IMG/VR virus record: IMGVR_UViG_3300025687_000338 | Location: 1-23,544 of that record | From: a virus | Reading direction: 5' to 3' (one strand) | Length of the DNA stretch: 23,544 bases | Shown here: piece after piece, positions 393-12,202 of the stretch | How the letters are laid out: the number at the start of each line of letters is the position of its first letter | Position numbering within the stretch: the first letter of the stretch is position 1 | Translations under genes and position numbers: made by a program | Notes under the pieces: model-generated | The model's input: only the letters and a program-made list of their open reading frames with translations | Databases searched by the model: none | Told to the model about the DNA's origin: nothing

Positions 393-523
393 AGCGGTGG
401 CGCTCGCAATCGGCGGATGGCGGCAAGAATGGCGCGCACCATCGGGCCGGTGACGGCCACCTCGCGGTCCAGCGCCAACGGGACGAGGCCCATATCCTTG
501 AGCTTTGCCCGGCCACGGGTCAT
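383..523 (-). CDS. Small hypothetical protein (46 aa)
   Basis: The ATG at 523-521 overlaps the stop of the HNH gene (ATGA), the same coupling used along the whole leftward operon, and the frame ends at TGA 385-383. The protein begins MTRGRAKLKDMGLVPL and contains a short amphipathic stretch (MVRAILAAIRRLR). I do not recognise it. Support comes from the overlap and position rather than from content. The last residues (APPLCA) look unnatural, so a frameshift near the 3' end is possible. Confidence 0.4.
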   Translation of the reverse strand: MTRGRAKLKDMGLVPLALDREVAVTGPMVRAILAAIRRLRAPPLCA

Positions 524-849
524 CGCTCCATTCTCCGCGTCCATGCGTTGTAGCCGGGCGGGGGCTTTCGGAAACCGCCCCGCTTGTCCTCAGCATTGAT
601 GTGGCGCTTCCTGATGCGCTTCGTCTTGGCGATCGCCGGCACGTCCTGAGTGTAGGTCTTGACGCCGTGGCACGACCGACAAAGCACCTGGCAGTTGTCG
701 GCTGTCGGCTCGCCGCCCACAGCGTCCGGCACACGATGATCGTAGTGGGGACCGTTGCCGGGCCTGATCTTCACGCCGCAGCTTTCGCAGCAGCCCTCGG
801 CGCGTTTGAAGGCGACCACCTTCACCTTGGCGGGAAACTCGCGCCTCAT
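520..849 (-). CDS. HNH endonuclease (109 aa)
   Basis: A small HNH nuclease. The cysteine pair CCESCG (residues 20-25) is followed by DHR (D37-H38), N52 and C57-x2-C60-H61-x2-K64. Together these form the His-Asn-His metal site and the zinc-binding Cys pairs of the HNH family. The tail is basic. I start at the ATG at 849, which overlaps the upstream stop (ATGA), rather than at an upstream in-frame ATG lying inside the neighbouring gene. Phage HNH proteins of this size may nick DNA during recombination or packaging. This copy lies in the early recombination operon, far from the terminase, so a role with RecT is more plausible, but that is inference. Confidence 0.82.
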   Translation of the reverse strand: MRREFPAKVKVVAFKRAEGCCESCGVKIRPGNGPHYDHRVPDAVGGEPTADNCQVLCRSCHGVKTYTQDVPAIAKTKRIRKRHINAEDKRGGFRKPPPGYNAWTRRMER

Positions 850-1304
850 GCCGCCCTCTCGGTCTGTCTCAGCAGCTCGTCCGGGTCGTGGCCGGTCTCG
901 GCGCGGATCACGTCGCAAACGGCGTCGGAGAGCCGGCAGAAGTCCGCGTGAGCCATCTTCGCAAAGCTGATCGACTTCGGTCGGAATACCACCAACGTGT
1001 CACCGTGGATCACCGGCATGGCGTAGGAGCCCGCGCCGCGGATGGCGGCCTCGGCCAGCATCATGGCTCGCTCCTTCGGCAAGCCGGTGAGCGGGATCTG
1101 CGCCCCGATCTCGCGCGCGCCGGCCTTCATCTGGAGGTAGGCTCTCAATTCCTCGCTGTTGGCGAACTGCCGCTCGTTGTCCTCGGGCCAGTGGAAGAAC
1201 GCGGCCTTGATGATCGCGAAGTAGCGCCGGATCTGCTCGACGCTCCTGGGCTTGCCGCCCGACGACGGGGCCAGCTCGCAGCCGCAGTGTGGGCAGTCCC
1301 TCAT
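846..1304 (-). CDS. DUF1367-like phage protein (152 aa)
   Basis: The N-terminus carries a possible zinc knuckle (CPHCGC, residues 4-9). Next comes RSVEQIRRYFAIIKAAFFHW, like the start of the DUF1367 core in which a basic segment precedes an F-x-L/I-x-x-A-F-x-x-W pattern. Near the C-terminus, RPKSISFAKM followed by a helix matches the most conserved part of that family. DUF1367 proteins sit in phage early or recombination operons and have no settled biochemical role. The start is the ATG at 1304, overlapping the upstream stop (TGA 1303-1301). A longer frame reaching 1595 is an antisense artefact over neighbouring genes. It is co-transcribed with recT upstream and the HNH gene downstream. Confidence 0.7.
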   Translation of the reverse strand: MRDCPHCGCELAPSSGGKPRSVEQIRRYFAIIKAAFFHWPEDNERQFANSEELRAYLQMKAGAREIGAQIPLTGLPKERAMMLAEAAIRGAGSYAMPVIHGDTLVVFRPKSISFAKMAHADFCRLSDAVCDVIRAETGHDPDELLRQTERAA

Positions 1305-1489
1305 GCGACATCCTCCACCTTTGGCTTTGGCCAGTAGGACATGGCCACTGTGCGCACGGCCTCTTTGTCGTGCCTGCCGATGAGGCCCTTGCGGAGAAGT
1401 TTCACGTAGGCGTCCTCCCAGCCGTAGCCAGCCCGCACATAGGTGCCGATCGCGGAGAACAGATGCGCCGGGATCTTGCGGTTGCTCAT
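1301..1489 (-). CDS. Small hypothetical protein (62 aa)
   Basis: The start ATG overlaps the upstream stop (1489-1486, ATGA), and the stop overlaps the next start. The protein begins MSNRKIPAHLFSAIGTYVRA and is mixed charge, without transmembrane segment, signal peptide or cysteine motif. The short helical middle (WEDAYVKLLRKGLIG) has no family I recognise. It is clearly a real member of the leftward operon because coupling is preserved on both sides. Function is unknown. Confidence 0.65.
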   Translation of the reverse strand: MSNRKIPAHLFSAIGTYVRAGYGWEDAYVKLLRKGLIGRHDKEAVRTVAMSYWPKPKVEDVA

Positions 1490-1797
1490 GGCGTGGGCTC
1501 CTCGCCGACATCCGCCACGAACTTTGCGGAAATCCCGATCTCGGCCAGCATGCCGCGGATCTGGTCCTCGGCAGCCTTGAGCCTTTCGTCAGCACGCCGC
1601 AGCAGGTCGTCCATGCGGGCCATCTCGGCCGCGTAGGCGCTCTCGAGGCGCTGGCGCTCGGTCAGGATCTCGTGCCGCTCCTCGATGGCGCGTTGGCGGA
1701 TGCCGGCGAGGCTCTCGAATGTCTGGCGCCGGATAGGGACCACGGTCTCGCCTGGGTCCGTCTGCGGCGTGGCGTTCCACCAGCGGCGTTCTTTCAT
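1486..1797 (-). CDS. Small coiled-coil protein (103 aa)
   Basis: After a Trp-rich start (MKERRWWNATP), residues ~25-90 are almost entirely charged helix with heptad-like spacing (EERHEILTERQRLE, then RADERLKAAEDQIRGMLAEIG). A dimeric coiled coil is therefore likely. There is no catalytic motif. Both ends overlap neighbouring genes by four bases. I cannot name a family. A scaffolding or partner-binding role for one of the adjacent early proteins is possible but only inferred. Confidence 0.65.
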   Translation of the reverse strand: MKERRWWNATPQTDPGETVVPIRRQTFESLAGIRQRAIEERHEILTERQRLESAYAAEMARMDDLLRRADERLKAAEDQIRGMLAEIGISAKFVADVGEEPTP

Positions 1798-2141
1798 GGC
1801 GTCTCTCCCCTTGCTTTGGAGAGGGCGGCACGGGCCGCTTTCTGCGCCGCCATGTAAACTTTCTCGAGTTCCACGGACGCAATGTCTTCATCGAATGCGT
1901 CGCTTGCTTTGAGAAGGTTCTCCAGCGCCGCGTAAAGCTCTGGCGCGGACGCGATCAAAGAAGTGTTTGCGCGGCAGTTATTTTTTGTCCGCCCATCAAC
2001 TTCGGCGATTAATGTTTTTCGTTTGGGTGAATCCCATATGAGTTCGCTATGAATATAACTCCCGTCGTGATCAGCGAGCTCGAACCCCCCATAATCACTT
2101 GTATAATACCACGGCCCCGGCGTGAATCTGGTCTCGCTCAT
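1794..2141 (-). CDS. Phage protein of the TPGPW / SLIASAPELY type (115 aa)
   Basis: The N-terminus reads MSETRFTPGPWYY and the middle NTSLIASAPELYAALENLL. This pairing of a TPGPW start with an N-x-x-LI-A-x-APELL-x-ALE block is common in small phage and prophage proteins and has no established function. The C-terminal half is helical and Ala/Lys rich. Both ends overlap neighbours (ATGA). The first half of the gene (about 1970-2115) is clearly richer in A and T than the genes around it, including an AT-only 8-base stretch near 1980, which suggests a separate origin or recent exchange. Confidence 0.68.
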   Translation of the reverse strand: MSETRFTPGPWYYTSDYGGFELADHDGSYIHSELIWDSPKRKTLIAEVDGRTKNNCRANTSLIASAPELYAALENLLKASDAFDEDIASVELEKVYMAAQKAARAALSKARGETP

Positions 2142-2308
2142 TTCTCATCCGCCTCCAGCTTGAGCCGCAGATCCTCGATGGCCTCCTCCTCCGTCGCGCC
2201 GTGTCCGACAGGACAGGGAGGGCCGTCGTAGGTATCGTCATCGACGGCGAGCCAATCGAAGCGGCGATCGGGGATAGGCTTTGGGTCGAATGTGGTGCGG
2301 ATGTTCAT
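2138..2308 (-). CDS. Small acidic phage protein (56 aa)
   Basis: The frame runs from ATG 2308-2306 to TGA 2140-2138 and overlaps both neighbours by four bases. The protein starts MNIRTTFDPKPIPDRRFDW and continues with a DDDTYDGPPCPVGHGATEEE segment and an acidic helix. This layout, a short D-P-x-P-I-P-x-R start, then a G-x-G-T-E-x-E-A-I helix, is one I associate with small uncharacterised phage proteins. No enzymatic motif is visible. Its length and context are typical of early-operon accessory proteins. Confidence 0.68.
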   Translation of the reverse strand: MNIRTTFDPKPIPDRRFDWLAVDDDTYDGPPCPVGHGATEEEAIEDLRLKLEADEK

Positions 2309-2538
2309 CGCTCGATCCCCATGGCTGAGCGGCAGGCGGCAATCGCCGTCCTGAGCCGCTTGCGGCCCTCATCCGTGAGCCCGTTGGCCTCGATGTAGCG
2401 GAGGCTTGTTAGACACGTCGCCATGGCGAGGCGATCGCTCACCGCGTCGGAGGCCATGGCGGCATCGAGGGCGATTTGCAGATCACGGCAGGCCTGCTCA
2501 TGAGCCTGCCATGCGGCGTCGAGAGGGATGGTGCCCAT
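2305..2538 (-). CDS. Small helical hypothetical protein (77 aa)
   Basis: The ATG at 2538-2536 overlaps the recT stop (TGATG). A GTG one codon earlier is an alternative start. The sequence begins MGTIPLDAAWQAHEQACRDL and is Ala-rich helix throughout, with a short linker at NGLTDEGRKRL. It has three cysteines without zinc-like spacing. No family is recognised. Position directly after recT, with translational coupling, suggests an accessory role in the recombination module, which is inference. Confidence 0.6.
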   Translation of the reverse strand: MGTIPLDAAWQAHEQACRDLQIALDAAMASDAVSDRLAMATCLTSLRYIEANGLTDEGRKRLRTAIAACRSAMGIER

Positions 2539-3458
2539 CACTCGGCCTCCACGGTGAGTTCCTGCAGCTCTTGCCGGCGATCGTTGATCTCCGTGGCGAG
2601 GATGCGCGCCCAGCCGTGCGGCAGCGTGTTGAGCAGGTCAGCGTTGCGCGTCTCGATAGCCTCCAGATCGGCCAGCGTGTCGGCACCGCTTACGGCGCCG
2701 CGTAGTTCGTTGAAGGCCACGTCGTCGCCGTCCCGCTTCGCCTGCGAGCTCGACTTGCGCATGGTGCTCGCCGGCGCCTCGTCCATGAGGTCGTTCGACG
2801 TGCGCTCCTGCACGTCCTGCATCTCTTCGGCGATGTAGATGCCGGCCAGCACGTCGGCGGCGCCGTCGCGAGCGGCGAGGCCGCGGGCGCGCATCTGTAG
2901 CATGCGGTCGGGGTATTGCTTCCATGGCCCCTGCTTGCCCCAGAGTCCTGCCGTCGTGGCGTCTGCCTGGGTGAAGGTGCGGATGATCTTCTCGCCGCCC
3001 GGCCGGATCACGGTGCACTCGGCAAACTTTCCGCCCGGTCCCGTGCCGATCTCCTCGATGATCTTAAACCCCTTGCTCCAAAGGATCGCCGGGATGGCGT
3101 CGCCCCAGAGCGTGGGCCTGCCGTTGACGACGGCGATCTTGTTGATGGCCATCATCGGCGGAATGCCGATCTCGAGCCCGTGGAGGATTGCCACCGTCAG
3201 CTTTTCGGCGCTCGCCATGTCGCGCGGGGCGAGGCCGCTCGCCGCCACGGCTTTGGCCAGCCGGAACACCTCTTCAATGCTGCCCGGTACGATGCCGGCT
3301 ATGACGCCGCCCGTCCTCAGCGCAACACCGCGTCCACCACCATTGCCGCCGCTGCTGAGAGCCCGACCGCCGTCACGCTCACCAGAAGGAGCGCCGTGCT
3401 CCAGATCAGAGCCGCTTCCCAGTTCCTGCGTCTGATGTCCATTGCCTGCCCCGGTCAT
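2538..3458 (-). CDS. recT: RecT-family single-strand annealing recombinase (306 aa)
   Basis: RecT-type annealases bind single-stranded DNA, pair complementary strands and usually act with a phage exonuclease. The conserved core begins around SIEEVFRLAKAVAASGLAP and continues with EKLTVAILHGLEIGIPPMMA, NGRPTLWGDAIPAI and YPDRMLQMRARGLAARDG, the signature blocks of the family. The C-terminus is charged and variable. I chose the ATG at 3458, preceded by a GGAG ribosome site. However, residues 1-50 are Gly/Ser-rich and unlike RecT, and overlap another small frame (3317-3442), so the real start may lie further in. I found no exonuclease partner of the RecE or lambda Exo kind in this window. Confidence 0.88.
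   Translation of the reverse strand: MTGAGNGHQTQELGSGSDLEHGAPSGERDGGRALSSGGNGGGRGVALRTGGVIAGIVPGSIEEVFRLAKAVAASGLAPRDMASAEKLTVAILHGLEIGIPPMMAINKIAVVNGRPTLWGDAIPAILWSKGFKIIEEIGTGPGGKFAECTVIRPGGEKIIRTFTQADATTAGLWGKQGPWKQYPDRMLQMRARGLAARDGAADVLAGIYIAEEMQDVQERTSNDLMDEAPASTMRKSSSQAKRDGDDVAFNELRGAVSGADTLADLEAIETRNADLLNTLPHGWARILATEINDRRQELQELTVEAE
3317..3442 (-). CDS. Tiny single-span membrane protein nested in recT (41 aa)
   Basis: A frame from ATG 3442-3440 to TGA 3319-3317 lies wholly inside the 5' part of recT in another frame. It encodes a basic start (MDIRRRNWEAAL), one strongly hydrophobic segment (about residues 12-36, including STALLLVSVTAVGLSAAAAM) and a short tail, which is a classic type II membrane peptide. 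A GGGGCAGG stretch six or so bases upstream could serve as ribosome site. It directly follows another tiny membrane protein. The overlapping recT residues look like filler, so this frame may be the truly selected one. Confidence 0.5.
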   Translation of the reverse strand: MDIRRRNWEAALIWSTALLLVSVTAVGLSAAAAMVVDAVLR

Positions 3459-3553
3459 CGTTTTATCTCCATCCACGCTATGGCCGCGCCTAGAGCGACC
3501 GAAACGACCACACAAACGAAAGCCCAGAAAAGCCACTCAACAGGACTGATCAT
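3455..3553 (-). CDS. Tiny single-span membrane protein (32 aa)
   Basis: ATG 3553 to TGA 3457-3455. The stop overlaps the recT start (ATGA), the same coupling seen along this operon. The product is MISPVEWLFWAFVCVVV followed by SVALGAAIAWMEIKR: one hydrophobic helix (residues ~5-27) with a basic end, consistent with an inner-membrane peptide with its C-terminus in the cytoplasm. The recT ribosome site (GGAG) lies inside its last codons. Function is unknown; tiny phage membrane peptides include superinfection and host-takeover factors. Confidence 0.55.
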   Translation of the reverse strand: MISPVEWLFWAFVCVVVSVALGAAIAWMEIKR

Positions 3554-3568
3554 TTTTTCACTCGAAAT

Positions 3569-3609
3569 GGCGGGGGCTGGTCCCCGCAACTATCCCGCCA
3601 GCCCCCGCC
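3569..3609 (-). other. Strong hairpin ahead of the small membrane protein/recT genes
   Basis: A perfect 12-base inverted repeat (3569-3580 and 3598-3609, GGCGGGGGCTGG and its complement) encloses a 17-base loop. It lies in the only sizeable gap of the leftward operon (3554-3664), about 16 bases before the ATG at 3553 on the minus strand. There is no T-run after it, so it is not an ordinary terminator. It could stabilise a processed mRNA end or damp downstream expression. A second smaller stem (CCGTTG/CAACGG) lies just upstream in the transcript. Confidence 0.6.
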
Positions 3610-3664
3610 GGTCGGCGCCGCCCGTTGCCCCCGCAACAACGGCCCTCAGGCGTCGCCAATCTGA

Positions 3665-3973
3665 TTATCGGTGCATCGGCAGCATGAGGCTGTCAGCCTG
3701 CCGCCAGAACGTCGTTGCCGGCTCGTGCTCGCCGGCGGCCCGCTCGATGGCGTCGGGCATCTGCTCATAGAGGTTGCGCGCGACCAGATCGAAGATGCCG
3801 CCCTTCGTGTAGGGCCGCGTCGCTGGCCCATAGGTGCGGTTGCGCTTGTCCCAGACGTAGAGGCCGACCTCCTCAATCACTCCGTCATGCGTGACCCATG
3901 CGACGCCGCGAGCGTGCATGTCGATGTCCTGACCGCCGTCTCGAAGCTCGAGATCGAATTCGAAGGTGGTCAT
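3665..3973 (-). CDS. Hypothetical protein (102 aa)
   Basis: The ATG at 3973-3971 overlaps the upstream stop (TGATG). GTG one codon earlier is an alternative. The protein starts MTTFEFDLELRDGGQDIDM and alternates short beta-like strands (ARGVAWVTHDGVIEEVGLYVW) with a C-terminal helix (IFDLVARNLYEQMPDAIERAAG). It is acidic overall, soluble, with no signal peptide or transmembrane segment. I do not recognise a family. It is the second gene of the leftward operon, so it should be expressed immediately after induction. Confidence 0.65.
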   Translation of the reverse strand: MTTFEFDLELRDGGQDIDMHARGVAWVTHDGVIEEVGLYVWDKRNRTYGPATRPYTKGGIFDLVARNLYEQMPDAIERAAGEHEPATTFWRQADSLMLPMHR

Positions 3974-4281
3974 CACACGTGCCCCCCGATGGTCTGCAGG
4001 ACCTCGATCATGTCGCTTGCGTGGAAAGCTCCGGCCTCGTCCGCTCGCGCCATCATCATGCCGACGAGCACGGTGGCGCTCGGGCGCTGCACCAGCTTCT
4101 GGGCGAGCATGTCGCGCTCGTCGCGGGTGCGCTCGTGGTCGGCCAGCTCCTTGAGCAAGAGGTCGGTGAGATCGGACAGCCGCCGTTCGAGGTAGACCAC
4201 CCGGTCCTCGGGCTTGGCGTCGCGGCAGTAGAAGAACGACCGGACTTCGGAGAGTGTCATGTCGGAAATATCGTCGAGCAT
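3973..4281 (-). CDS. Hypothetical helical protein (102 aa), first gene of the leftward operon
   Basis: First gene downstream of the leftward promoter, with a leader of about 90 bases. The protein begins MLDDISDMTLSEVRSFFYC and has a long charged helix (EDRVVYLERRLSDLTDLLLKEL and onward), probably a coiled coil, followed by an Ala/Met-rich segment. An internal ATG at codon 8 is an alternative start. No enzymatic motif and no recognised family. First genes of phage leftward operons often act as early regulators or host-interaction proteins, but nothing in the sequence shows that directly. Confidence 0.62.
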   Translation of the reverse strand: MLDDISDMTLSEVRSFFYCRDAKPEDRVVYLERRLSDLTDLLLKELADHERTRDERDMLAQKLVQRPSATVLVGMMMARADEAGAFHASDMIEVLQTIGGHV

Positions 4282-4306
4282 TGTCCCAGCCCCATGTGCC
4301 TAGAGG

Positions 4307-4376
4307 TCATCACCGGGACGCCGCGAGATGCTGTCTCACATCCAAGGGGGGAGGATGTTCGGCGCCCCGGTGATGA
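4307..4376 (-). repeat. Long inverted repeat in the leader of the leftward operon
   Basis: Positions 4307-4323 (TCATCACCGGGACGCCG) and 4360-4376 are inverted copies matching at 16 of 17 bases, separated by 36 bases. The element lies almost exactly between the expected start of the leftward transcript (~4374) and its first gene, so it would fold at the very 5' end of that RNA. It could be an mRNA-stabilising stem, an antitermination or attenuation element, or a pair of protein-binding sites. Part of it recurs near 13215. Confidence 0.65.
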
Positions 4377-4380
4377 GTTG

Positions 4381-4409
4381 ACACTAGTCGGACGCTAACG
4401 ACACGTCAA
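4381..4409 (-). promoter_or_regulatory. Leftward early promoter
   Basis: On the minus strand TTGACG (4409-4404) and TAGTGT (4386-4381) are separated by exactly 17 bases, a good sigma-70 arrangement. GTTGAC half-sites in opposite orientation (4377-4382 and 4405-4410) bracket the promoter and may be operator arms. The same TTGACGTG word forms the -35 region of the leftward promoter at 13713-13741. Confidence 0.6.
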
Positions 4410-4430
4410 CACAAATCGGATGCTTCCTAC

Positions 4431-4439
4431 TTATCCACA
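4431..4439 (+). promoter_or_regulatory. Perfect DnaA box
   Basis: TTATCCACA is identical to the strongest classical DnaA-binding site. It stands in the divergent control region between the leftward promoter and the first rightward gene, not at the putative origin in the O-like gene. Host DnaA could therefore act here as a transcription regulator, or mark an origin. A single nine-base match can occur by chance. Confidence 0.5.
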
Positions 4440-4458
4440 GTTGCACTCATGACACAGA

Positions 4459-4487
4459 TTGCGCCGTTGCATGAATCCGACTATCGT
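4459..4487 (+). promoter_or_regulatory. Possible rightward promoter for the small HTH gene
   Basis: TTGCGC (4459-4464) and TATCGT (4482-4487) have 17-base spacing and would start RNA at about 4494, at or next to the ATG at 4495. The transcript would then be leaderless, like lambda cI mRNA made from PRM. The spacer contains a GANTC site (GAATC, 4473-4477), the methylation target of alphaproteobacterial CcrM and the sequence around which GcrA acts. Both hexamers are imperfect. Confidence 0.35.
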
Positions 4488-4494
4488 TCGGGGC

Positions 4495-4728
4495 ATGACA
4501 AGCCTGCGCGAACAATTTCTAGCTGAGGTGGAGGCCTACTTGCAGGCCTCCGGCATGAACCCGTCGGACTTCGGCGGGGCTGTGCTCAAGGATAGGTCGT
4601 TCGTCACGAGGCTCCGCAAGGGCCGCGACGTGACGACTCACACGATAGACAAGGTGCGGCGTTGGATCGAGCGCCACCCTCCCAAGGCTCGCCCGTCCCG
4701 TGCGCGCGAGGTAAGGCCCGCCGCGTAA
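4495..4728 (+). CDS. Small helix-turn-helix regulator (77 aa)
   Basis: The protein has an N-terminal helix (FLAEVEAYLQAS), then SGMNPSDFGGAVLKDRSFVT and RLRKGRDVTTHTIDKVRRW. Residues ~21-44 fit a helix-turn-helix in which FGGAVLKD is the first helix and SFVTRLRKGR the recognition helix. The tail is basic. It is probably a DNA-binding switch protein acting on the divergent promoters beside it. ATG 4495 is preferred because it begins the conserved-looking part and lies beside a possible leaderless promoter. In-frame starts at 4471 (ATG) and 4459 (TTG) are alternatives. No peptidase domain is present, so this is more Cro-like than LexA/cI-like in size. Confidence 0.7.
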   Translation: MTSLREQFLAEVEAYLQASGMNPSDFGGAVLKDRSFVTRLRKGRDVTTHTIDKVRRWIERHPPKARPSRAREVRPAA

Positions 4729-4738
4729 GTCGGCGGGC
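4716..4738 (+). terminator. Hairpin at the end of the HTH gene
   Basis: GCCCGCCG (4716-4723) and CGGCGGGC (4731-4738) pair perfectly over 8 bases with a 7-base loop that contains the TAA stop codon. No T-run follows, so it may only attenuate transcription or need antitermination to be passed. Confidence 0.5.
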
Positions 4739-5039
4739 CTAGTCCCCTCCGTACAGCGTCAGTCTCAGTTGCATCGCGTCTGCTGGCCCTACCGCCAGCG
4801 GGATCGGCCATGTGCGCGCTCTAGGTCTCTCCGTGTAGAGGCGCCGCGCATGGGCGTGACCGGTCCCGCTCGCCGTGAGGCATAGCCTCCTGCTGCGCTC
4901 CTGTGCAGGCGTCCGGCGGCGTCTGACTGACTAGAGAGGCCCGATGCCCAGCAGCAGGAGGTCCCCATTGGGGGCACATCATGTGGGGTCAAATCGGGCC
5001 GTCCGCCGGAGAAATTCGAGTTGGGACAGTGGGGGTTAC
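4739..5039 (+). other. Long gene-free leader ahead of gcrA
   Basis: About 300 bases without a convincing gene. A perfect 10-base inverted repeat (CCTCCTGCTG at 4886-4895, complement at 4952-4961) could close a large stem, and CCCC-ATT-GGGG (4963-4973) is a small stem close to the gcrA start. I see no tRNA and no clear promoter hexamers. A frame running from 4944 into gcrA exists, but its N-terminal residues look non-coding. A long structured 5' leader controlling gcrA is plausible. Confidence 0.4.
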
Positions 5040-5573
5040 ATGTGGACAGATAAAGCGGTCGAAGATCTCAAGACGCTCTGGGCGAGAGGTCTTAGTGCCA
5101 GCCAGATCGCGGGCCAGCTCGGCGCTGTAAGCCGCAACGCCGTCATCGGGAAAGCTCATCGCCTTGGGCTTGCCGGCAGGGCTAGGCCAGAGCGTCAGGC
5201 CGTCGCCGCCAAGCACCAGCACCGCACGCGACACCGCTCCAAGGCAAAGGCGCCGCCGATGAACAAGCGCGAGAAGTCGCTGGCCGATCTTCTGACCGCC
5301 GAGCCCCTGCCGCCCAAGGAAGTCACCGACATCGCCCGCAAGACGTTCGCCGAGCTGGAGAGCACCGATTGCCGGTGGCCGGTCGGTGAGCCCGGAGAGC
5401 CCGGTTTTGGCTTCTGCGGCTGCAAGGCGTCGGCAGGCCTTCCTTACTGCCAGGACCACGCCCGCCGCGCCTACAGCGCCAGGATCGTCGGCCGTCCATC
5501 AGTTCCGACAGAGGTCGCCAGAGCGCCGGCATCGCTCACCGGCAAGGCCGTCCGCCATCTTTTTGGAACGTAA
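5040..5573 (+). CDS. gcrA: GcrA family cell-cycle regulator (177 aa)
   Basis: GcrA proteins bind RNA polymerase sigma-70 and activate promoters carrying methylated GANTC sites in alphaproteobacteria. The N-terminus, MWTDKAVEDLKTLWARGLSA then SQIAGQLGAVSRNAVIGKAH and RLGL, is the diagnostic GcrA helix-turn-helix (residues 1-44). After a basic, low-complexity linker (45-75), the C-terminal module has STDCRWPVGEPG and FCGCKASAGLPYCQDH (C111, C126, C128, C137, H140), as in chromosomal GcrA. The ATG at 5040 has a strong GGGGG ribosome site and begins the conserved sequence. It lies where lambda keeps cII, between a small HTH gene and the O-like replication gene. It may redirect host sigma-70 complexes to phage promoters according to methylation state. 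Confidence 0.93.
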   Translation: MWTDKAVEDLKTLWARGLSASQIAGQLGAVSRNAVIGKAHRLGLAGRARPERQAVAAKHQHRTRHRSKAKAPPMNKREKSLADLLTAEPLPPKEVTDIARKTFAELESTDCRWPVGEPGEPGFGFCGCKASAGLPYCQDHARRAYSARIVGRPSVPTEVARAPASLTGKAVRHLFGT

Positions 5574-5606
5574 AAAGAAAAGCCCCGGAGCTAGGCTCTC
5601 CGGGGC
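5572..5606 (-). terminator. Leftward intrinsic terminator between gcrA and the replication genes
   Basis: GCCCCGGAG (5582-5590) and CTCCGGGGC (5598-5606) form a perfect 9-base stem with a 7-base loop. Read leftward, the stem is followed by TTTTCTTTTT, so this is a textbook terminator for minus-strand transcription. Rightward there is no T-run. No leftward gene lies in front of it, which implies a short non-coding leftward transcript. Confidence 0.75.
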
Positions 5607-5668
5607 AATCCGTTGTCCGGGGCTTGGACAGGTACTCGAAACCAACTGATCCCGTCTGGAGGATCATT
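5572..5668 (-). ncRNA. Candidate short antisense RNA, position like lambda oop
   Basis: Bounded by the candidate promoter at 5675-5703 and the strong leftward terminator, a ~97-nt RNA would end at the gcrA stop codon and cover the GGAGG ribosome site of the short leader frame at 5669. Lambda encodes its leftward oop RNA in the same place, between cII and O. Only the terminator is strongly supported; the RNA itself is inference. Confidence 0.35.
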
Positions 5669-5722
5669 ATGCAAACGATAGCAAAGCAATTCGGCAGCAT
5701 CAAGGCGAGGGCCGCGAAATGA
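5669..5722 (+). CDS. Short leader peptide coupled to the replication gene (17 aa)
   Basis: ATG 5669 follows a strong ribosome site (CTGGAGGATCATT) and reads 17 codons (MQTIAKQFGSIKARAAK) to TGA 5720-5722, which overlaps the ATG of the O-like gene (ATGA). The O-like gene has no good ribosome site of its own, so ribosomes probably reach it through this leader. The basic peptide has no known family. The leader may exist only for coupling. Its ribosome site would be covered by the candidate antisense RNA on the other strand. Confidence 0.55.
   Translation: MQTIAKQFGSIKARAAK
5675..5703 (-). promoter_or_regulatory. Possible leftward promoter for an antisense RNA
   Basis: On the minus strand TTGATG (5703-5698) and TATCGT (5680-5675) are spaced by exactly 17 bases, with four of six consensus matches each. 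Transcription would begin near 5668 and run straight into the leftward terminator. Confidence 0.4.
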
Positions 5723-6501
5723 GTGTGTACGACGAGATGCGCGCCATCCTCGCCCTGGACCTCAAGCCGAACGAGCTTCGCGTCCTCATGACCTACCGCC
5801 TCGAGATGGACGAGGACACCCGGCAGGTGCGCGGCAAGACGCAAGAGCAATTGCGCGCTATGTGCGGTCTCAGCAAGTCGCAATTCAGCATGGCAAGCGG
5901 TGCTCTCGCCGAGCGCGGATTGATCGAAGTCGACAAGGCTCCGAACGCAGCAAGTACGGTCTTCGTTCTGGTTCCGAATTCCGATGGTTCCGAAAATCGG
6001 AACACCCGAAACTCGGAACTCGGAACACCCGAAATTCGGAACTCCGAGGTTCCGAATTCCGGAACTCCTCTTTATATCGGCTCCAGTAAGTCGGCTCCTA
6101 AGTCGACGAAAGGGGTTAGCGGGCGCGCGAACTCTCACAAATTCTGGTCGGAAGCGATCGGCCACGGAGCTCACCACCACGACGGCGGTGTTCGCATGGA
6201 CGGGGAGCGCATCGTCCTCGTCAACGGGACGAGAGCCGAATGGCTCGAGAAGTTCGACGGCGACGAGAACCGGCTCGACCTCGCCTTGCTGCAGGTTGCC
6301 GGTTTCATCCAGCCGAACAGTTCCCGCCCCCTGTCGGCGCAGGTCTCAAGCCAGCTCGCTCGCATCGCCGGCCAGCGCCACGACCAGACCATTCGCTACG
6401 AGGCTACGCGCGCCAAAGCGCAGCGGGCAGGACCGCAGCAGACCGGCAAGCGAACCCTTGCCGATGCCCTTCGTGATGCCGCAGCCAAGGAGTGCGCCTG
6501 A
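5719..6501 (+). CDS. Replication initiator-like protein, lambda O type layout (260 aa)
   Basis: Residues ~6-87 form a winged-helix domain of the kind in phage replication initiators and DnaD-like proteins: LKPNELRVLMTYRLEM, KTQEQLRAMCGLSKSQFSMA and GALAERGLIEVDK. A low-complexity linker (~88-125, rich in N, S, E, T, P) follows, then a C-terminal domain with helices (WSEAIGHGAH, RLDLALLQVAGFIQ). The linker is encoded by a cluster of short DNA repeats (5970-6062), just as the lambda origin iterons lie within gene O. By analogy it binds those repeats and recruits the helicase loader encoded by the next gene. The start ATG overlaps the leader frame. No helicase motifs are present, in line with an initiator rather than an enzyme. 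Confidence 0.72.
   Translation: MSVYDEMRAILALDLKPNELRVLMTYRLEMDEDTRQVRGKTQEQLRAMCGLSKSQFSMASGALAERGLIEVDKAPNAASTVFVLVPNSDGSENRNTRNSELGTPEIRNSEVPNSGTPLYIGSSKSAPKSTKGVSGRANSHKFWSEAIGHGAHHHDGGVRMDGERIVLVNGTRAEWLEKFDGDENRLDLALLQVAGFIQPNSSRPLSAQVSSQLARIAGQRHDQTIRYEATRAKAQRAGPQQTGKRTLADALRDAAAKECA
5970..6062. repeat. Iteron cluster, probable phage replication origin
   Basis: The word TCGGAAC or its complement GTTCCGA occurs seven times in about 90 bases (starts near 5971, 5988, 5997, 6013, 6020, 6036, 6049). Two 25-base copies beginning TCGGAACACCCGAAA (5997-6021, 6020-6044) differ at one base. GGTTCCGAATTCCG occurs exactly at 5970-5983 and 6048-6061, framing the array symmetrically. An AT-richer patch (TCTTTATAT, 6069-6077) follows. 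The array lies in the linker of the O-like gene, as in lambda. Confidence 0.75.
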
Positions 6502-7001
6502 TGTCGATTTCGCAGGAGATCATTGCCCGGTTTATGGCCGTATTTGGCGAGCCGCGCACGACCGATCCGGACCTGTTTCTCAAAGAATATGCCCGCTGCA
6601 TGGACGGCTACGATGAGGCCGCGCTGCGCAAGGCTGCCGACAAGCTGATCGCCTCGAGCACGTTCTGGCCGAAGCCGGCAGAACTTCTGGCCGAGACGCG
6701 GAAGGCGTTGGCCGACGCTGCGCGCCACCGCCGGCCCCATGTGCCGGCTGAGCATGAGCAGATTGAGCGGCGCGAAGTGTCGCCGGAGGCAAGAGCACGA
6801 ACCGACAAACTGGTCGCTGATCTCAAAGCCAAGCTGACGCTGACGAGCCAAGAGCCGACGCCTCGGCCGGTCGATGCCAGCGCCGGAAGCTTCTACGACA
6901 TGCAGCGCAACAGCCCCAACAAGGGCCTGCACATGACGCGGGAAGGCTTGGCCCGCCTCACCGAGCAATCCCGCCGCCAGACCGGGGAGCGCGATGAATG
7001 A
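6501..7001 (+). CDS. Helicase-loader-like replication protein (166 aa)
   Basis: The N-terminal ~75 residues are helical and end in a typical loader pattern: an F-G-E-P start, YARCMDGYDEAALRKAADKL and SSTFWPKPAELLAETRKAL, resembling the G39P/lambda P-like proteins that bind the replicative helicase (a GY-x-x-x-x-L-x-x-A helix followed by a P-x-P-A-E motif). The rest is charged and probably disordered, with ITAM-free, low-complexity segments. It has no ATPase motifs, so it is not DnaC-like. ATG 6501 overlaps the stop of the O-like gene (TGATG). Order O-like then loader matches lambda O-P. The similarity is by pattern only. Confidence 0.6.
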   Translation: MSISQEIIARFMAVFGEPRTTDPDLFLKEYARCMDGYDEAALRKAADKLIASSTFWPKPAELLAETRKALADAARHRRPHVPAEHEQIERREVSPEARARTDKLVADLKAKLTLTSQEPTPRPVDASAGSFYDMQRNSPNKGLHMTREGLARLTEQSRRQTGERDE

Positions 7002-7195
7002 TGGCCGACTTCGAGAAGCTCGCCCACGACGCCCGCCTCGCGGCGCAGAAATGGTCCGAAGACTGGCGCTATGAGTTCGAGGAGCGCGCCGCCATCAAGG
7101 AGATCGACGGCGGTATCCCGCGCGCAAGGGCCACATTCGAGGCCTTCTGCGAGATCCGCAAACGCAAGCAGGAATGGGAGGCCAAGGGGCAATGA
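6998..7195 (+). CDS. Small hypothetical protein (65 aa)
   Basis: ATG 6998 overlaps the upstream stop (ATGA); the next codon is also ATG. The product (MMADFEKLAHDARLAAQKW onward) is charged and almost all helical, with a short break at DGGIPRARA. No domain is recognised. It is translationally coupled both to the loader upstream and to the helicase downstream, so it probably belongs to the replication unit. Coding is supported by the overlaps and natural composition. Confidence 0.65.
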   Translation: MMADFEKLAHDARLAAQKWSEDWRYEFEERAAIKEIDGGIPRARATFEAFCEIRKRKQEWEAKGQ

Positions 7196-8598
7196 GCAAC
7201 TACATCGATCTTCTGGAAAGAAAAAACGCATCATTTTCGCCGCGTGGCATGGCGCGCGTCCCACGCCTGGCTGATGAGATGTTTCCGCATCAGAGACATT
7301 CGACGGAGTTCGCACTGCGCGCCGGGTGCTCTGCGATGTTTCTCGACACGGGCCTCGGCAAGTCGCTGTGCGCTCTCGAATGGGGGCGCGTCGTTGTCGA
7401 GCACACGAATAAGCCGGTCCTGATGCTGGCGCCTCTGGCTGTCGGTCCACAGCATCAACGGGAGGCGGAGAAGTTCGGCATCGCGGCCCGCTACATCCGC
7501 GAACCAGAGGATGTGAGTGGGGCCGGTGTGTGGATCACCAACTACGAGCGGCTGGAAAAATTCGACGCATCTAGTTTTTCCGGCGTCATTCTCGACGAGT
7601 CGTCCATCCTGAAATCCTTCACGGGAGCAACGACGCGAGCGCTCATGAGCGCATTTGCGGATACGCCTTTCAAGCTCGCGTGCACCGCTACGCCCGCGCC
7701 GAACGATCATACCGAGCTTGGCCAGCACGCGGAGTTCCTTGGCATCATGCGGACCATGGAAATGCTGGCCCAGTGGTTCATCAACGACACCAGCACGGCT
7801 AGTCAAGACTGGCGTCTAAAGAAGCATGCTGTGCGCCCCTTCTGGGATTGGGTCGCGAGCTGGTCGCGGTGCATCTCGAAGCCGTCAGATATCGGTTTCG
7901 ATGATGGTAATTTCTCTTTGCCCGATCTCGTCATGCACCAGCACGTAGTAGAGGTTGATCGTTCGGTTGATGCTGGCGAGGAGAAGGACGGCCAGGCGCG
8001 GCTTCTGCGCATGCCAGAAACCAGTGCGACGTCAATCCATCGCGAGAAGCGTATGACGGTTGATGCGCGGGCGGACAGGATCGCTGCCATGGTTGCCGCA
8101 GAGCGCGACGAGCCGTGGATCGTGTGGTGCGACACCGATTATGAGGCTGATGCACTCACGAACCGCATCCCGGACGCGATGGAAGTGCGCGGCTCCATGC
8201 GTGCCGACGTAAAGGAGGAGAGGCTGGTCGCGTTCAGTCTCGGCAAGGCCCGCGTGATCGTCACCAAGCCGAGTATCGCCGGATACGGTCTCAACTGGCA
8301 GCACTGCGCGAGGCAGGCATTTGTTGGCCTATCGTTCAGCTACGAGAGCTTTTATCAGGCCATTCGGAGATCGTGGAGGTTCGGCCAGACGCGGCCAGTG
8401 CACGTCCATGTCGCCATGGGGGACACGGAAAAGGCAATATGGGACGTGGTGAGCCGTAAGAGCGGCGATCATGACCGCATGAAGAACGAGATGCGCGGTG
8501 CCATGAGCCGCGCGGTTAACGTGCACCAGCCACGGAAGCCGTACACGCCGACAAAGAACGTCATCATTCCATCTTGGATCGAGGGGAGCGCAGCATGA
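7192..8598 (+). CDS. SNF2/DEAD-like superfamily 2 helicase (468 aa)
   Basis: An ATP-dependent DNA translocase or helicase. Motif I is DTGLGKS (residues 52-58), preceded by the FPHQ block. TNYERL (116-121) is motif Ia/b-like. Motif II is DESS (135-138), variant of DEAD/DESH, and motif III is TATP (165-168). In the second RecA domain come GYGLNWQHC and AIRRSWRFGQTRPVHVH, carrying the motif V and arginine-finger motif VI (RRSWRFGQ). This architecture is typical of phage SNF2-type proteins such as those next to VRR-NUC or methyltransferase genes. ATG 7192 overlaps the upstream stop. It is directly followed, with ATGA coupling, by a DNA methyltransferase, so the two may act on the same DNA. GC content at third positions looks somewhat lower than in the flanking genes. 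Confidence 0.88.
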   Translation: MSNYIDLLERKNASFSPRGMARVPRLADEMFPHQRHSTEFALRAGCSAMFLDTGLGKSLCALEWGRVVVEHTNKPVLMLAPLAVGPQHQREAEKFGIAARYIREPEDVSGAGVWITNYERLEKFDASSFSGVILDESSILKSFTGATTRALMSAFADTPFKLACTATPAPNDHTELGQHAEFLGIMRTMEMLAQWFINDTSTASQDWRLKKHAVRPFWDWVASWSRCISKPSDIGFDDGNFSLPDLVMHQHVVEVDRSVDAGEEKDGQARLLRMPETSATSIHREKRMTVDARADRIAAMVAAERDEPWIVWCDTDYEADALTNRIPDAMEVRGSMRADVKEERLVAFSLGKARVIVTKPSIAGYGLNWQHCARQAFVGLSFSYESFYQAIRRSWRFGQTRPVHVHVAMGDTEKAIWDVVSRKSGDHDRMKNEMRGAMSRAVNVHQPRKPYTPTKNVIIPSWIEGSAA

Positions 8599-9491
8599 AC
8601 ACCATTATCAATCAAGCCGACGGCAAGACATTTTCGGCGATTCATGGCGATTGCGTTATGGGCATGTCTGATCTGCCCGACGCCAGCGTCGGGTTCTCGA
8701 TATACTCGCCGCCATTCTCGGATCTTTTCGTCTATTCGGATAGCGCTGCCGATATGGGCAACAACGTCTCTGACAGCGCTTTTTTCGAGCAGTACGGGCA
8801 TGTTATCGCGCAAAAAATGCGCGTCCTGAAACCGGGGAGGTTGACTGCGGTACACTGCACGGATCTACCTGCCCGCAAAGGGAAAGACGGATATATCGGC
8901 CTCAAGGGCTTTTCCGACGACATCGTGCGCGCGCACCAGGATGCAGGGTTTATCTATCATTCGCGCATCACGATCTGGAAGGACCCTGTTGTTGAGATGC
9001 AGCGCACGAAAGCCATCGGTCTACTCTACAAGCAGCTCAAAAAAGACAGCGCCATGAGCCGGGCCGGCATGGCGGACTATCTGCTGGTGTTTCGGAAGCC
9101 CGGCGACAATCCCGAGCCAATCGAGCACTCGACACAGGATATCCCTGTCGATATCTGGCAGAAGTGGGCCAGCCCCGTGTGGATGGATATCAACCAGACT
9201 GACGTCTTGAATGGCCGGCAGGCGCGATGCGAGGAAGATGAGAAGCATATTTGCCCGTTGCAGTTGCCGCTGATCGAGCGAGCCATCCGGCTGTGGTCAA
9301 ACCAGGGCGATGTCGTGTTGTCCCCGTTCATGGGGATCGGGTCTGAAGGCGTTGTCGCCATGCGGACGCGCCGAAAGTTCATCGGGTTCGAGTTAAAGGA
9401 AAGCTACTGGCGGCAGGCATGCCGGTTCATTGCCGACGCCGAGGATGCGTCGGCCGGCGGATCGTTGCTCGACATTATGGGGGCGGCATGA
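8595..9491 (+). CDS. DNA (N4/N6) methyltransferase, beta-type motif order (298 aa)
   Basis: An amino-methyltransferase acting on adenine N6 or cytosine N4 in DNA. The catalytic motif IV is SPPF (residues 38-41), near the N-terminus just after HGDC. The SAM-binding motif I comes late, as SPFMGIGSEG (243-252), followed by GFELKESYW. This order (IV before I) defines the beta group. The target recognition region lies between, around residues 90-220. No restriction endonuclease is adjacent, so this is an orphan enzyme, perhaps protecting phage DNA from host restriction or altering regulatory sites. SPPF rather than DPPY argues against simple CcrM-like GANTC specificity, though specificity cannot be read from the sequence. 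Start overlaps the helicase stop (ATGA). Confidence 0.88.
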   Translation: MNTIINQADGKTFSAIHGDCVMGMSDLPDASVGFSIYSPPFSDLFVYSDSAADMGNNVSDSAFFEQYGHVIAQKMRVLKPGRLTAVHCTDLPARKGKDGYIGLKGFSDDIVRAHQDAGFIYHSRITIWKDPVVEMQRTKAIGLLYKQLKKDSAMSRAGMADYLLVFRKPGDNPEPIEHSTQDIPVDIWQKWASPVWMDINQTDVLNGRQARCEEDEKHICPLQLPLIERAIRLWSNQGDVVLSPFMGIGSEGVVAMRTRRKFIGFELKESYWRQACRFIADAEDASAGGSLLDIMGAA

Positions 9492-9709
9492 ATCTCGAAA
9501 TCTGGCTCCTGTGGGCCGTTCTGGAAACCGGCGAGTCTGGCCCTGTCCCTGTCTCCCGCATGATCTGCGAGCTCACGGAGAGCGAGGTCAGCGCCGGCAA
9601 GGTGGTGACGGCCGAAAGGGCTTTCGACACGCCGAGGATCTTGGAAGCCTCCTGCCTCGGTCCCTATCTCCCGCCGTCGGATGGGATTTGTGAGGAGCCT
9701 GCGTCATGA
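9488..9709 (+). CDS. Small hypothetical protein (73 aa)
   Basis: ATG 9488 overlaps the methyltransferase stop (ATGA). The product begins MNLEIWLLWAVLETGESGPV and ends in a Pro/acidic tail. The first 13 residues are hydrophobic but with a weak positive charge, so a signal anchor is unlikely though not excluded. Two or three cysteines are spread out. No family is recognised. The next gene again overlaps its stop. Confidence 0.6.
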   Translation: MNLEIWLLWAVLETGESGPVPVSRMICELTESEVSAGKVVTAERAFDTPRILEASCLGPYLPPSDGICEEPAS

Positions 9710-10290
9710 GGATAGCAATCGCCCTTGCCGCTGTGTGTCTCGCGTCTCCAGTGGCCGCCTACGACTACGACCAGCGCTGGATAGGCCAGACGATCAGGCA
9801 GGGCCATCACGTCGAGCACCGGGCCAAGCCGCGCCCGGTCAAGCGGCACACGCCGAAGCCCAAGCCGGCGCCGAAGGTCGTCAAGGACGAGCACCCCGAG
9901 GCCCGCGTCTACGGCGTCACCATCCGCATGGTCCAGATCGACAAGCGGGATTGTCACGGCGGCTGTTGCCCGGCCGTGGAGAACATCTCTCGTGACCACA
10001 GCAGCCAGGACCGCGCGTGGAACGACGCCCAGCTTGGCTGGATGAAGGCCGTGGCCGTCCGCTACGGCTCCATGTACGCGGACATTCAAAATTCCGACTG
10101 GTCGGGCCTCGTCAAGCAGTGCTTCCGCAGCTCGTTCGGGGAGAGCTGGCTCGATCGCAACCTCGAGGCGGCGGCGAAAAACACCGGCATCTCCGACGGC
10201 CACAAGTGGACCTGCCGCATCATCGCCCGCCCCTGCATCCAGCCCGTGGACGGTGCGATCGATACCAAGCTCAAGGGGGATAGCCGGTGA
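9706..10290 (+). CDS. Exported cysteine-containing protein (194 aa)
   Basis: A clear signal peptide (MRIAIALAAVCLASPVAA, cleavage likely before YDYD) indicates export to the periplasm; there is no proper lipobox. A basic, Pro/Lys-rich stretch follows (KPRPVKRHTPKPKPAPK), then a folded domain with DCHGGCC, a conserved-looking SQDRAWNDAQLGWMKAVAVR helix, and further cysteines (KQCF, WTCRI, RPCIQ). The paired cysteines suggest disulfides formed in the periplasm. I do not recognise the family. An exported protein in the middle of the replication/transcription region is unusual; it could modify the envelope in lysogeny or infection. Confidence 0.7.
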   Translation: MRIAIALAAVCLASPVAAYDYDQRWIGQTIRQGHHVEHRAKPRPVKRHTPKPKPAPKVVKDEHPEARVYGVTIRMVQIDKRDCHGGCCPAVENISRDHSSQDRAWNDAQLGWMKAVAVRYGSMYADIQNSDWSGLVKQCFRSSFGESWLDRNLEAAAKNTGISDGHKWTCRIIARPCIQPVDGAIDTKLKGDSR

Positions 10291-10493
10291 ACGCCAACCT
10301 CAACGTCGGCCAGATCATCAGCCAAGTTACGTCCATCATCACCACCATCGTCGGCATTGCCCTGCTGGTGCTCATTGCCGGCACCGTGGCGGCAAAGTTT
10401 GGCGTCCGGGCCAGCTTCCTGCCTCAGACGGGAGAGCAGGCTCTGGCGTGGCTCTGCGGGGCTTGGTGGCTCTATCGGGGAGGGAAGCTGTGA
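10287..10493 (+). CDS. Small two-span membrane protein (68 aa)
   Basis: GTG 10287 overlaps the upstream stop (GTGA). A Thr/Ile-rich hydrophobic segment (ITTIVGIALLVLIAGTVAA, residues ~17-37) is followed by a short basic piece (KFGVR) and a second weaker segment (GEQALAWLCGAWWLY). It probably sits in the inner membrane as a hairpin. Size and topology resemble small holins, but lysis genes are otherwise absent and the context is early, so I do not call it a holin. It follows an exported protein with which it may cooperate. Confidence 0.62.
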   Translation: MNANLNVGQIISQVTSIITTIVGIALLVLIAGTVAAKFGVRASFLPQTGEQALAWLCGAWWLYRGGKL

Positions 10494-10759
10494 TCGACGC
10501 CGACAGCGCTCGCCGCGAGTTGGCCCGCATGCACGAGTGCCTGCCGTATTTTACCGAGGCCGAATGCCGGCGGGCCGACCAACTGATCGACATCATCAAC
10601 GAGGCCAGCATGGCAACCCGCGTCAAAGGCACCGTGAAGGACGGCAAGTTCAAGCCGAAGGATTCCACCCCCGCCCCTCTCCGCAAGGGCAAGGCTCTCA
10701 AGGCTGCCCGCGTCGAGAAGGGCCTCAAGGCCAACAGGGCTCGATCGAAAGCGACGTGA
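10490..10759 (+). CDS. Hypothetical protein with basic tail (89 aa)
   Basis: GTG 10490 overlaps the upstream stop and is preceded by GGGGAGGGAAG, a strong ribosome site, which decides the start. The first half is an acidic helix (DADSARRELARMHECLPYFT, then EAECRRADQLIDIINEA). The second half is very basic (KGTVKDGKFKPKDSTP and many Lys/Arg to the end), suggesting nucleic-acid or membrane-surface contact. An internal ATG (MATRVKG) could give a short basic protein alone. No family is recognised. Confidence 0.6.
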   Translation: MIDADSARRELARMHECLPYFTEAECRRADQLIDIINEASMATRVKGTVKDGKFKPKDSTPAPLRKGKALKAARVEKGLKANRARSKAT

Positions 10760-10760
10760 C

Positions 10761-10802
10761 TGGTCGGAATTGGTCGGTGAATTTCCGACCATTTTCCGAC
10801 CA
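10761..10802. repeat. Nested inverted repeats TGGTCGG (four half-sites)
   Basis: Four copies of TGGTCGG or its complement occur in 42 bases: 10761, 10771 forward; 10785, 10796 reversed. The outer pair (TGGTCGGAA/TTCCGACCA) and the inner pair (TGGTCGG/CCGACCA, 7-base loop) are perfect. The element fills the gap between two genes and is either a stem-loop in RNA or a double operator. Confidence 0.65.
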
Positions 10803-10822
10803 GAGCAGAGAAAGATTAGGCC

Positions 10823-11062
10823 ATGATCAAGGCAAGGTTGCGGAAGCACGATATTCCGATTGCAGTATTGGTGTGGGACGACGAAGAAGGCGAAGGCCGC
10901 GTTGTTTGGGATAAGCACGCAGTAAAGCAAGCTGAACGCATCGTTATGCTGGACGGAATGGTAGATTGGCGGGCCGCTTTGATTGCCGAATACAATGCGT
11001 GGCTGGAGGACGAGACCAAAGGCATGCCCGAGGCCAACCGCGAGAAGGCGAGGAAGGCATGA
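10823..11062 (+). CDS. Hypothetical protein (79 aa)
   Basis: First gene after the TGGTCGG inverted repeats. It starts MIKARLRKHDIPIAVLVWDD and contains two short beta-like strands (IPIAVLVWDD, GRVVWDK) followed by a helix (AVKQAERIVMLDGMVDWRAA) and a charged C-terminus. No motif or family is recognised. The stop overlaps the next start (ATGA). The ribosome site is weak (AGAGAAAG). It might be controlled by whatever binds the repeats upstream. Confidence 0.6.
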   Translation: MIKARLRKHDIPIAVLVWDDEEGEGRVVWDKHAVKQAERIVMLDGMVDWRAALIAEYNAWLEDETKGMPEANREKARKA

Positions 11063-11298: not shown

Positions 11299-11579
11299 CT
11301 AAGGCGAGGATTATGGCGGAGAGATTGATCACCGCGATGGATAAAGCACGGCGATCTGGCCGCGTCGTGCATGAGCATGAGTTGACAGAGGCGGCGTTCG
11401 ACGAGGCCATCGCCGCCGAGCGTGAGGCCTGCGCCAAGATCGCGGAGCAATGGGCAACCGAACTGGCAAAAGCGAGCGAACCGTACATGGCTACGCCGCA
11501 GGTGGCAGCACAATATCTGACGCGAGCGACAGATGCGGGCGACATCGCCGCCGCCATCAGAGCAAGAGGTCAGCAGTAG
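11295..11579 (+). CDS. Hypothetical helical protein (94 aa)
   Basis: ATG overlaps the previous stop (ATGA). The sequence begins MTKARIMAERLITAMDKARR and includes EAIAAEREACAKIAEQWATE, a block (A-x-E-R-E-A-C-A-x-I/V-A-E) that recurs in many small uncharacterised phage proteins. It is helical throughout with no transmembrane segment. No function is known. The next gene begins 14 or 50 bases downstream depending on its start. Confidence 0.65.
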   Translation: MTKARIMAERLITAMDKARRSGRVVHEHELTEAAFDEAIAAEREACAKIAEQWATELAKASEPYMATPQVAAQYLTRATDAGDIAAAIRARGQQ

Positions 11580-11629
11580 ACGCCAATTCCCCCGTGCCTG
11601 CGTACCAGATCACAACTGCGAGGCACTCA

Positions 11630-12112
11630 TTGACCTGGACCATACTTCGATCCGCCCCGTGCCGCGAATTTCGTGCAAGGGACGAGTTGCACAGACTCGG
11701 GCTCTCTGCCTACGTGCCCGTCGAGTTCGACGTGTCCCGCTTCGGCAGGGGCCGCGAGACCATCCGGAAGTCGCCCATCATCCGCGGCTACGTGTTCGCG
11801 GCCGTGCCTGACAGCCATTGGCCGACGGTCGCCGCCGTCCGGGACATCAAGGGCGCGATCATGTTTAACGGCCGGCCGGCCCGCTTGGCGCAGCGTGAGG
11901 TGGACGCCATCGAGCTGCTGTCCCGCCCCGTCGAGCGCCATCGCGGCGTCCGCTGGCGGCCCGGTGATTCAGTCGCCATTCGGCGCGGTGCGTTCGCCGC
12001 GCTCGAGGGCGTTGTCCGGCGTATCGAACGCGGGAAAATCATCACGGAGATCCACATGCTCGGAAAGCTCTGCGAGGTTCCTGTGTCGGCCGACCATCTG
12101 GAGGCCGCATAG
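11630..12112 (+). CDS. NusG-like transcription elongation factor (about 160 aa)
   Basis: NusG-family proteins bind the RNA polymerase clamp through an NGN domain and change pausing or termination. Here WTILRSAPCREFRARDELHR, then LGLSAYVPVEFD and IIRGYVFAAVPDSHWPTVAA, VRDIKGAIMFNGRPA form the NGN domain. The KOW-type tail follows, WRPGDSVAIRRGAFAALEGVV, with a beta-rich end, IITEIHMLGKLCEVPVS. The start is uncertain: TTG 11630 has GAGG just upstream and gives MTWTILRS; GTG 11594 would add 12 residues but has no ribosome site. A phage copy is likely a specialised antiterminator like RfaH or LoaP. The hairpin and TGGAACC array directly downstream are candidate targets. Confidence 0.78.
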   Translation: MTWTILRSAPCREFRARDELHRLGLSAYVPVEFDVSRFGRGRETIRKSPIIRGYVFAAVPDSHWPTVAAVRDIKGAIMFNGRPARLAQREVDAIELLSRPVERHRGVRWRPGDSVAIRRGAFAALEGVVRRIERGKIITEIHMLGKLCEVPVSADHLEAA

Positions 12113-12172
12113 CATGGCCTACAGACGCATCCCGCCGAGTAAAACCTAAGTCCCGCGTGTGCGAGACAAGAG

Positions 12173-12200
12173 GAACCCGCGTCGGTAACGGCGCGGGTTC
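12173..12200 (+). terminator. Hairpin after the NusG-like gene
   Basis: GAACCCGCG (12173-12181) and CGCGGGTTC (12192-12200) pair perfectly over 9 bases around a 10-base loop. There is no T-run afterwards, so it may be a weak terminator, a pause hairpin or a factor-dependent site. Confidence 0.55.
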
Positions 12201-12202
12201 GT

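Follow-up and report, generated by a model that had tools for sequence, protein, structure and literature searches.

What does GcrA, a bacterial cell-cycle regulator, do in the early operon of a phage, at the place where λ has cII? The question is raised by a stretch of DNA of 23,544 nt (the window), which is the whole of the virus record IMGVR_UViG_3300025687_000338 and comes from an alphaproteobacterial phage with a P22-type portal. The initial annotation had read in it the λ-like order of a small helix-turn-helix (HTH) gene, gcrA, an O-like gene with internal iterons and a P-like gene, and had proposed GcrA as the lysis/lysogeny activator of the phage. This interpretation was partly supported, in its architecture only. 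We rather propose, with a probability of about 0.5, that GcrA is an early phage-encoded sigma70 cofactor supporting replication, in a λ-type operon with an oop-like element. Phage GcrA and the λ-type early region are each known, but their combination is new; earlier examples of phage GcrA came mainly from phages that are large or unrelated, and it was discussed as a host-takeover factor.

The gcrA gene of the window is full length. Its product matched PF07750 over residues 2-147 (E 8e-44, 150 bits) and the PDB entry 7ye1 over residues 2-162 (E 2.6e-31), with further matches to 5yiu and 5yix. Both domains are present, the N-terminal DNA-binding domain (DBD), in which lies the recognition segment SRNAVIGKAHRLGL, and the C-terminal sigma-interacting domain. 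Ten phage GcrAs agree without exception in this segment and in C-terminal Cys/His residues, all of which the window protein has. GcrA binds sigma2 and methylated DNA (PMC7403470), and the window GcrA, which has the conserved residues, may likewise bind sigma70 and methylated GANTC DNA. The dN/dS ratio was 0.11-0.36 for five pairs of phage genes encoding GcrA or GcrA-DBD proteins, indicating that relatives of the window GcrA are under purifying selection. A protein carrying both a DNA-binding and a sigma-interacting domain could also work as a decoy or competitor, displacing the host protein from sigma70 or methylated promoters and arresting the host cell cycle. Versions reduced to the DBD, which occupy the same slot in some relatives, would act as competitors, but in the full-length form neither domain has lost its invariant residues, which is what an activator would show, and we hold the decoy to be improbable. 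A recent capture of gcrA from a host was not established, as the tree mixed phage and host rows, with 8 label changes; the window GcrA grouped weakly with that of phage L004 (84/86).

A second IMG/VR record, 3300025646_000107 (40,730 bases), matched the window at 99.97% identity, in two blocks that meet inside the window: positions 1-18722 pair with one of its ends, and 18560-23544 with the other. The two blocks overlap by 163 bases, not letter-perfect. Read most simply, the phage genome is circular or circularly permuted, about 40.57 kb long and apparently complete. Because this record carries the remainder of the genome, the whole gene content could be examined, beyond the window.

Table 1. 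Features of the early region and its surroundings (window coordinates).
Feature	Position	Strand	Evidence
Leftward early arm	520..4281	-	HNH, RecT-like, two unknown genes
HNH gene	520-849	-	PF01844 E 3e-9
RecT-like gene	2538-3458	-	PHROG 561 RecT E 1.5e-35
Divergent early control region	4282..4494	.	sequence; GANTC scan
Cro-like small HTH gene, 77 aa	4495..4728	+	predicted fold, family context; alternative start 4471
gcrA, full length, 177 aa	5040..5573	+	PF07750; PDB matches
Leftward intrinsic terminator, oop/tO-like	5582..5606	-	GCCCCGGAG/CTCCGGGGC then TTTTCTTTTT; same position in relatives
Candidate leftward promoter	5675..5703	-	TTGATG-17-TATCGT, consensus match only, p ~0.02 in window
O-like replication initiator	5719..6501	+	PHROG O-like E 0.005-0.01 (weak)
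Iteron cluster within O-like gene, putative origin	5971..6068	.	GTTCCGA/TCGGAAC, 23-bp period
P-like helicase-loader candidate	6501..7001	+	PHROG 2289 E 0.013 (weak); family alignment
DarB-like helicase and DNA methyltransferase pair	7192..9491	+	PHROG 62/16/67; PF01555 E 4e-21
NusG-like antiterminator, between early and late genes (Q-like position)	11450..12112	+	PF02357 E 1.5e-9; PHROG 6386

The λ-like order of the initial annotation was confirmed (Table 1), with weak profile matches for the O-like and P-like products. The first rightward gene is probably Cro-like, by predicted fold and family context rather than by sequence profiles, as its product matched no Pfam family and had no confident profile match. 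AlphaFold, given 10 homologues, predicted four helices in an HTH arrangement (pLDDT 84); the best PDB matches of this model were of the XRE/Cro type, at a probability of 0.98 but with a weak E-value of 0.4. The Cro-like role is supported by a member of its family (HTH4495) that lies divergent from an S24 repressor in L174, an integrated prophage of Rhizobiales bacterium 2SD. The O-like protein has a C-terminal domain common to the O-type genes of relatives, and an N-terminus resembling that of L265; its structure prediction was of low confidence (pLDDT 53) and was not used. Eight of the 22 GTTCCGR half-sites of the genome fall within 5971-6059, and 23-bp iterons are found at 5997-6068. The O-type genes of five relatives (L015, L087, L089, L090 and L005) contain their own internal repeats, of 10-23 bp, in a similar place. 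The P-like product is 35% identical to the post-O gene product of the phage MW202785, and belongs to a family of genes located 3' of O-type genes. An open frame of 17 codons (5670-5723) has a good ribosome-binding site, overlaps the O-like start (ATGA) and may encode a leader peptide.

Between gcrA and the O-like gene, a few bases beyond the gcrA stop codon, lies a leftward terminator with a 9-bp G+C stem. By fixed criteria applied to both strands, it is the only strong terminator of the genome, while 0.43 are expected in each shuffled genome, and a 9-bp stem was obtained in none of 30 shuffles. A leftward terminator was present at 5 of 65 distinct gcrA-type 3' ends, versus 6 of 805 other gene ends, and all five belong to the group with O and P downstream; later scans gave three further cases (L240, L252 and L299). 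When a gcrA-type gene directly before an O-type gene, or separated from it by one small gene, was counted, 8 of 11 loci had the leftward terminator, with four unrelated hairpin sequences. These loci are partly related, so that they do not amount to eleven independent observations. L005, in which a 133-residue gene separates gcrA and O, has no leftward terminator, and L296 has one before O, together with a different slot gene and CI.

The initial annotation had also suggested an oop-like RNA at this junction. Its terminator was found, and its promoter is suggested by a weak consensus match; an Rfam search of the window returned no match. An RNA starting from the candidate promoter would be about 85-95 nt long, and would overlap the gcrA reading frame by about 3 nt, versus 52 nt for oop over cII in λ. 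There, pO opposes pR and tunes replication initiation, and the oop RNA also targets the cII mRNA (PMC3985674, PMC5869508). Given the difference in overlap, a role in replication timing is more likely for the oop-like element than antisense control of the gcrA coding sequence. The short overlap, and the fact that no conserved leftward promoter was found, would suit a hairpin that only insulates or ends stray transcription, in which case the oop-like RNA would not exist. Such a hairpin is harder to reconcile with the strong orientation bias, the T-tract being on the leftward side only in all cases, and with its being the only strong terminator of the genome; we find this explanation doubtful.

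Could GcrA be a working analogue of CII, which activates a repressor and integrase promoter and ties the lysis/lysogeny decision to CcrM methylation? Neither a tyrosine integrase (PF00589) nor an S24 repressor was found in the whole phage genome. No recognised CI lies beside the Cro-like gene and no CI-like gene in the leftward arm, and no HTH match was obtained for the gene that diverges from the Cro-like one. Of an immunity switch, only the Cro-like half is visible in this phage. More generally, the divergent genes of gcrA loci have an HTH_3 domain in just 14 of 57 cases, and an S24 domain in 11 of 57. The slot gene, being GcrA, did not match the CII profile PF05269, which was above cut-off in no relative searched, a point in favour of an analogue. 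The sole CII match of the window, sub-threshold, was in a 66-residue HTH protein with YdaS/Cro similarity, encoded upstream of the late genes (13805-14005). A 79-residue protein (11059-11298) consists of a LexA DNA-binding domain alone (PF01726 E 8e-11), with no peptidase domain, and could be an unusual repressor. The only recombinase of the genome is of the invertase/resolvase type (193 aa). The small serine recombinase of this type is encoded outside the window, at 19934-20332 of 3300025646_000107 (G001, minus strand); G003, G004 and G005, all of them gcrA phages, encode similar enzymes.

A switch reading host methylation on phage promoters was also looked for in the distribution of GANTC. 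The motif is depleted five-fold in the genome (39 seen versus 197 expected) and similarly scarce in the window (21 versus about 115), other gapped palindromes being far less affected. At the early control regions of 59 gcrA loci it was not enriched (12 seen, 12.9 expected), and intergenic ratios were no higher in gcrA phages than in others. Control gaps being at background, the sequence support for a methylation-read switch on phage promoters is removed. A published scan of alphaproteobacterial phages reported no positional bias of GcrA sites (PMC9437464). GcrA might nevertheless act at sites without GANTC. The divergent control region of the window has a single GANTC, at 4473-4477, 22 bases 5' of the ATG at 4495; it would fall within the Cro-like gene if the start were the ATG at 4471.

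Gene order of the λ kind, with gcrA where λ has cII, was found in some temperate relatives. MW202785 (Caudoviricetes sp. ct2G2228), a complete circular podovirus, has an integrase, a small CI-type HTH gene, a Cro-like gene, gcrA, a replisome organizer and a P homologue. Its gcrA, at 31944-32480 (locus L215, 6995-7531, plus strand), is unannotated, the public annotation being a hypothetical protein on the opposite strand, and its GcrA had no close relatives among the viral contigs searched. The order is CI, cro-position gene, gcrA, O in L257 and L005, and CI, gcrA, terminator, O-like gene, DnaB in L252; gcrA follows cro in the integrated prophage L174 and in L104. L257 and L265 carry nearly the same gcrA in different immunity contexts, CI and Cro in the former, an HTH4495-type gene with no adjacent CI in the latter, as in mosaic lambdoid phages.

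These arrangements, with gcrA beside CI and an oop-like terminator after it even in a phage having CI (L252), are what a CII analogue would predict. They have to be set against the missing integrase and CI, the background level of GANTC at control gaps, the report of gcrA in phiCbK-like phages (PMC3556154) and a gcrA position that is not fixed. The CII analogue appears very improbable, and the proposal of the initial annotation that GcrA is the lysis/lysogeny activator of the window phage was not supported; in temperate relatives GcrA may have a CII-like role. It is also improbable, in our view, that in temperate alphaproteobacterial CI-cro-gcrA-O phages GcrA has replaced CII, lysogeny being read from the methylation and cell-cycle state of the host under control of an oop-like RNA, and that the window phage is a virulent descendant which kept gcrA.

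The objection that related phages would keep gcrA at unrelated positions was borne out in part. The gene is found downstream of O-P in L004, immediately upstream of the helicase gene in L092/L122, and after the methyltransferase in L097/L100/L105. By gene calls from a heuristic made for this analysis, its rank within the rightward run was 0-12 across 91 loci, and 0-2 in 56 of them. The slot before O, also sampled by an O-anchored scan free of bias towards gcrA, has no gcrA in L085, L295 and L297. In the phages closest by helicase identity, it is filled by a protein made of the GcrA DNA-binding domain only (L087, L089 and L090) or by none (L085). Such DBD-only proteins are encoded at 3372-3689 in L087, 4077-4394 in L089, 4580-4876 and 4921-5280 in L090, and 225-542 in L299; having a single DNA-binding domain of the GcrA type but lacking the sigma-interacting domain, they apparently form a separate type of regulator. 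A slot that holds other small genes or none, and a gcrA position that varies, could mean that gcrA is accessory cargo in a variable slot of the early operon. Cargo would not be expected to be under purifying selection, nor the gcrA-before-O order to be repeated in distinct phages with a leftward terminator recurring at the junction, and we consider this explanation quite unlikely.

The early region is built on the λ plan, with a recombinase in the left arm and a rightward operon encoding the Cro-like repressor, GcrA, the O-like and P-like proteins and the helicase/methyltransferase pair, followed by the NusG-like antiterminator. As the early sigma70 cofactor that we favour, GcrA would be made early, together with O and P, would bind host sigma70, and would bias the host RNA polymerase towards GcrA-responsive, GANTC-methylated promoters. 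As the phage has very few GANTC sites, the responsive promoters would be mostly on the host chromosome. Host replication genes would be switched on while O and P start phage replication; these targets are suggested by the known partners of GcrA (PMC7403470) and by what was proposed for phiCbK-like phages, namely that the GcrA they encode may serve to turn on replication genes of the host (PMC3556154). A short leftward RNA starting near the O start would end at the terminator and, by opposing the operon transcript, would lower rightward transcription through gcrA-O and set the timing of origin firing, as in the dual control by λ pR/pO (PMC3985674). The same gcrA position is used in temperate relatives that retain CI and integrase.

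Several observations weigh against this proposal. The leftward promoter is weak, and no counterpart of it was seen in relatives. L215, L257 and L265 have gcrA next to O without a leftward terminator. The GANTC depletion is as strong in many relatives lacking gcrA, and therefore marks the host lineage rather than the use of GcrA; a similar depletion exists in some pelagiphages (PMC9516812). The DBD-only protein in the slot of L087, L089, L090 and L299 means that sigma contact is not always needed there. Last, the small HTH proteins at 13805-14005 and 11059-11298 could hide an unrecognised repressor, and a lysogenic state, perhaps plasmid-like, may exist but is unlikely.

Compared with λ cro-cII-oop-O-P, the window phage has the same gene order, a divergent recombinase left arm, a leftward terminator before O and an initiator gene with internal iterons. 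It differs by GcrA in place of CII, by the absence of a detected CI or integrase, by a putative RNA that hardly overlaps the upstream gene, and by O-like and P-like proteins that are only remotely similar. Its GcrA is full length with both domains, like Caulobacter GcrA (PF07750) and gp222 of phiCbK, an already known phage-encoded copy; however, the phiCbK-like phages are of another type, being large phages of Caulobacter, whereas the window gcrA is inside a λ-type early operon, beside replication genes. MW202785 shares the gcrA-O-P order, the NusG-like antiterminator, a NinB/Erf left arm and a 40-kb podovirus map, but has CI and integrase and no leftward terminator, and its GcrA is 36% identical to that of the window. 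The Rhizobiales bacterium 2SD prophage (SCMY01000014) shares a RecT left arm, an HTH4495-family Cro, gcrA, the same helicase/methyltransferase and NusG, but has an S24 repressor and a tyrosine integrase, and its replication gene lies further downstream. As gcrA is repeatedly found between cro and O, together with an oop-like terminator, a bacterial cell-cycle regulator is now tied to the λ control region, and complete genomes are at hand for testing. The oop-like element has almost no antisense overlap with the gene upstream and the genome shows no lysogeny module, so that control of replication is favoured as the role of pO over antisense action on cII.

In the left arm, two further genes (3665-3973 and 3973-4281) had no PHROG match. 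The methyltransferase (8595-9491) was considered as a phage CcrM; it has an SPPF motif and matches CcrM (6pbd) over 78 residues only, and on that evidence is not a CcrM orthologue. The tandem helicase and methyltransferase genes resemble a split DarB-type protein. They form a conserved downstream block. With the helicase, 80 viral loci were found; the pair occurs in at least 80 viral contigs, and also as part of prophages in Rhizobiales, Azospirillum, Acetobacteraceae and one Dictyobacter genome.

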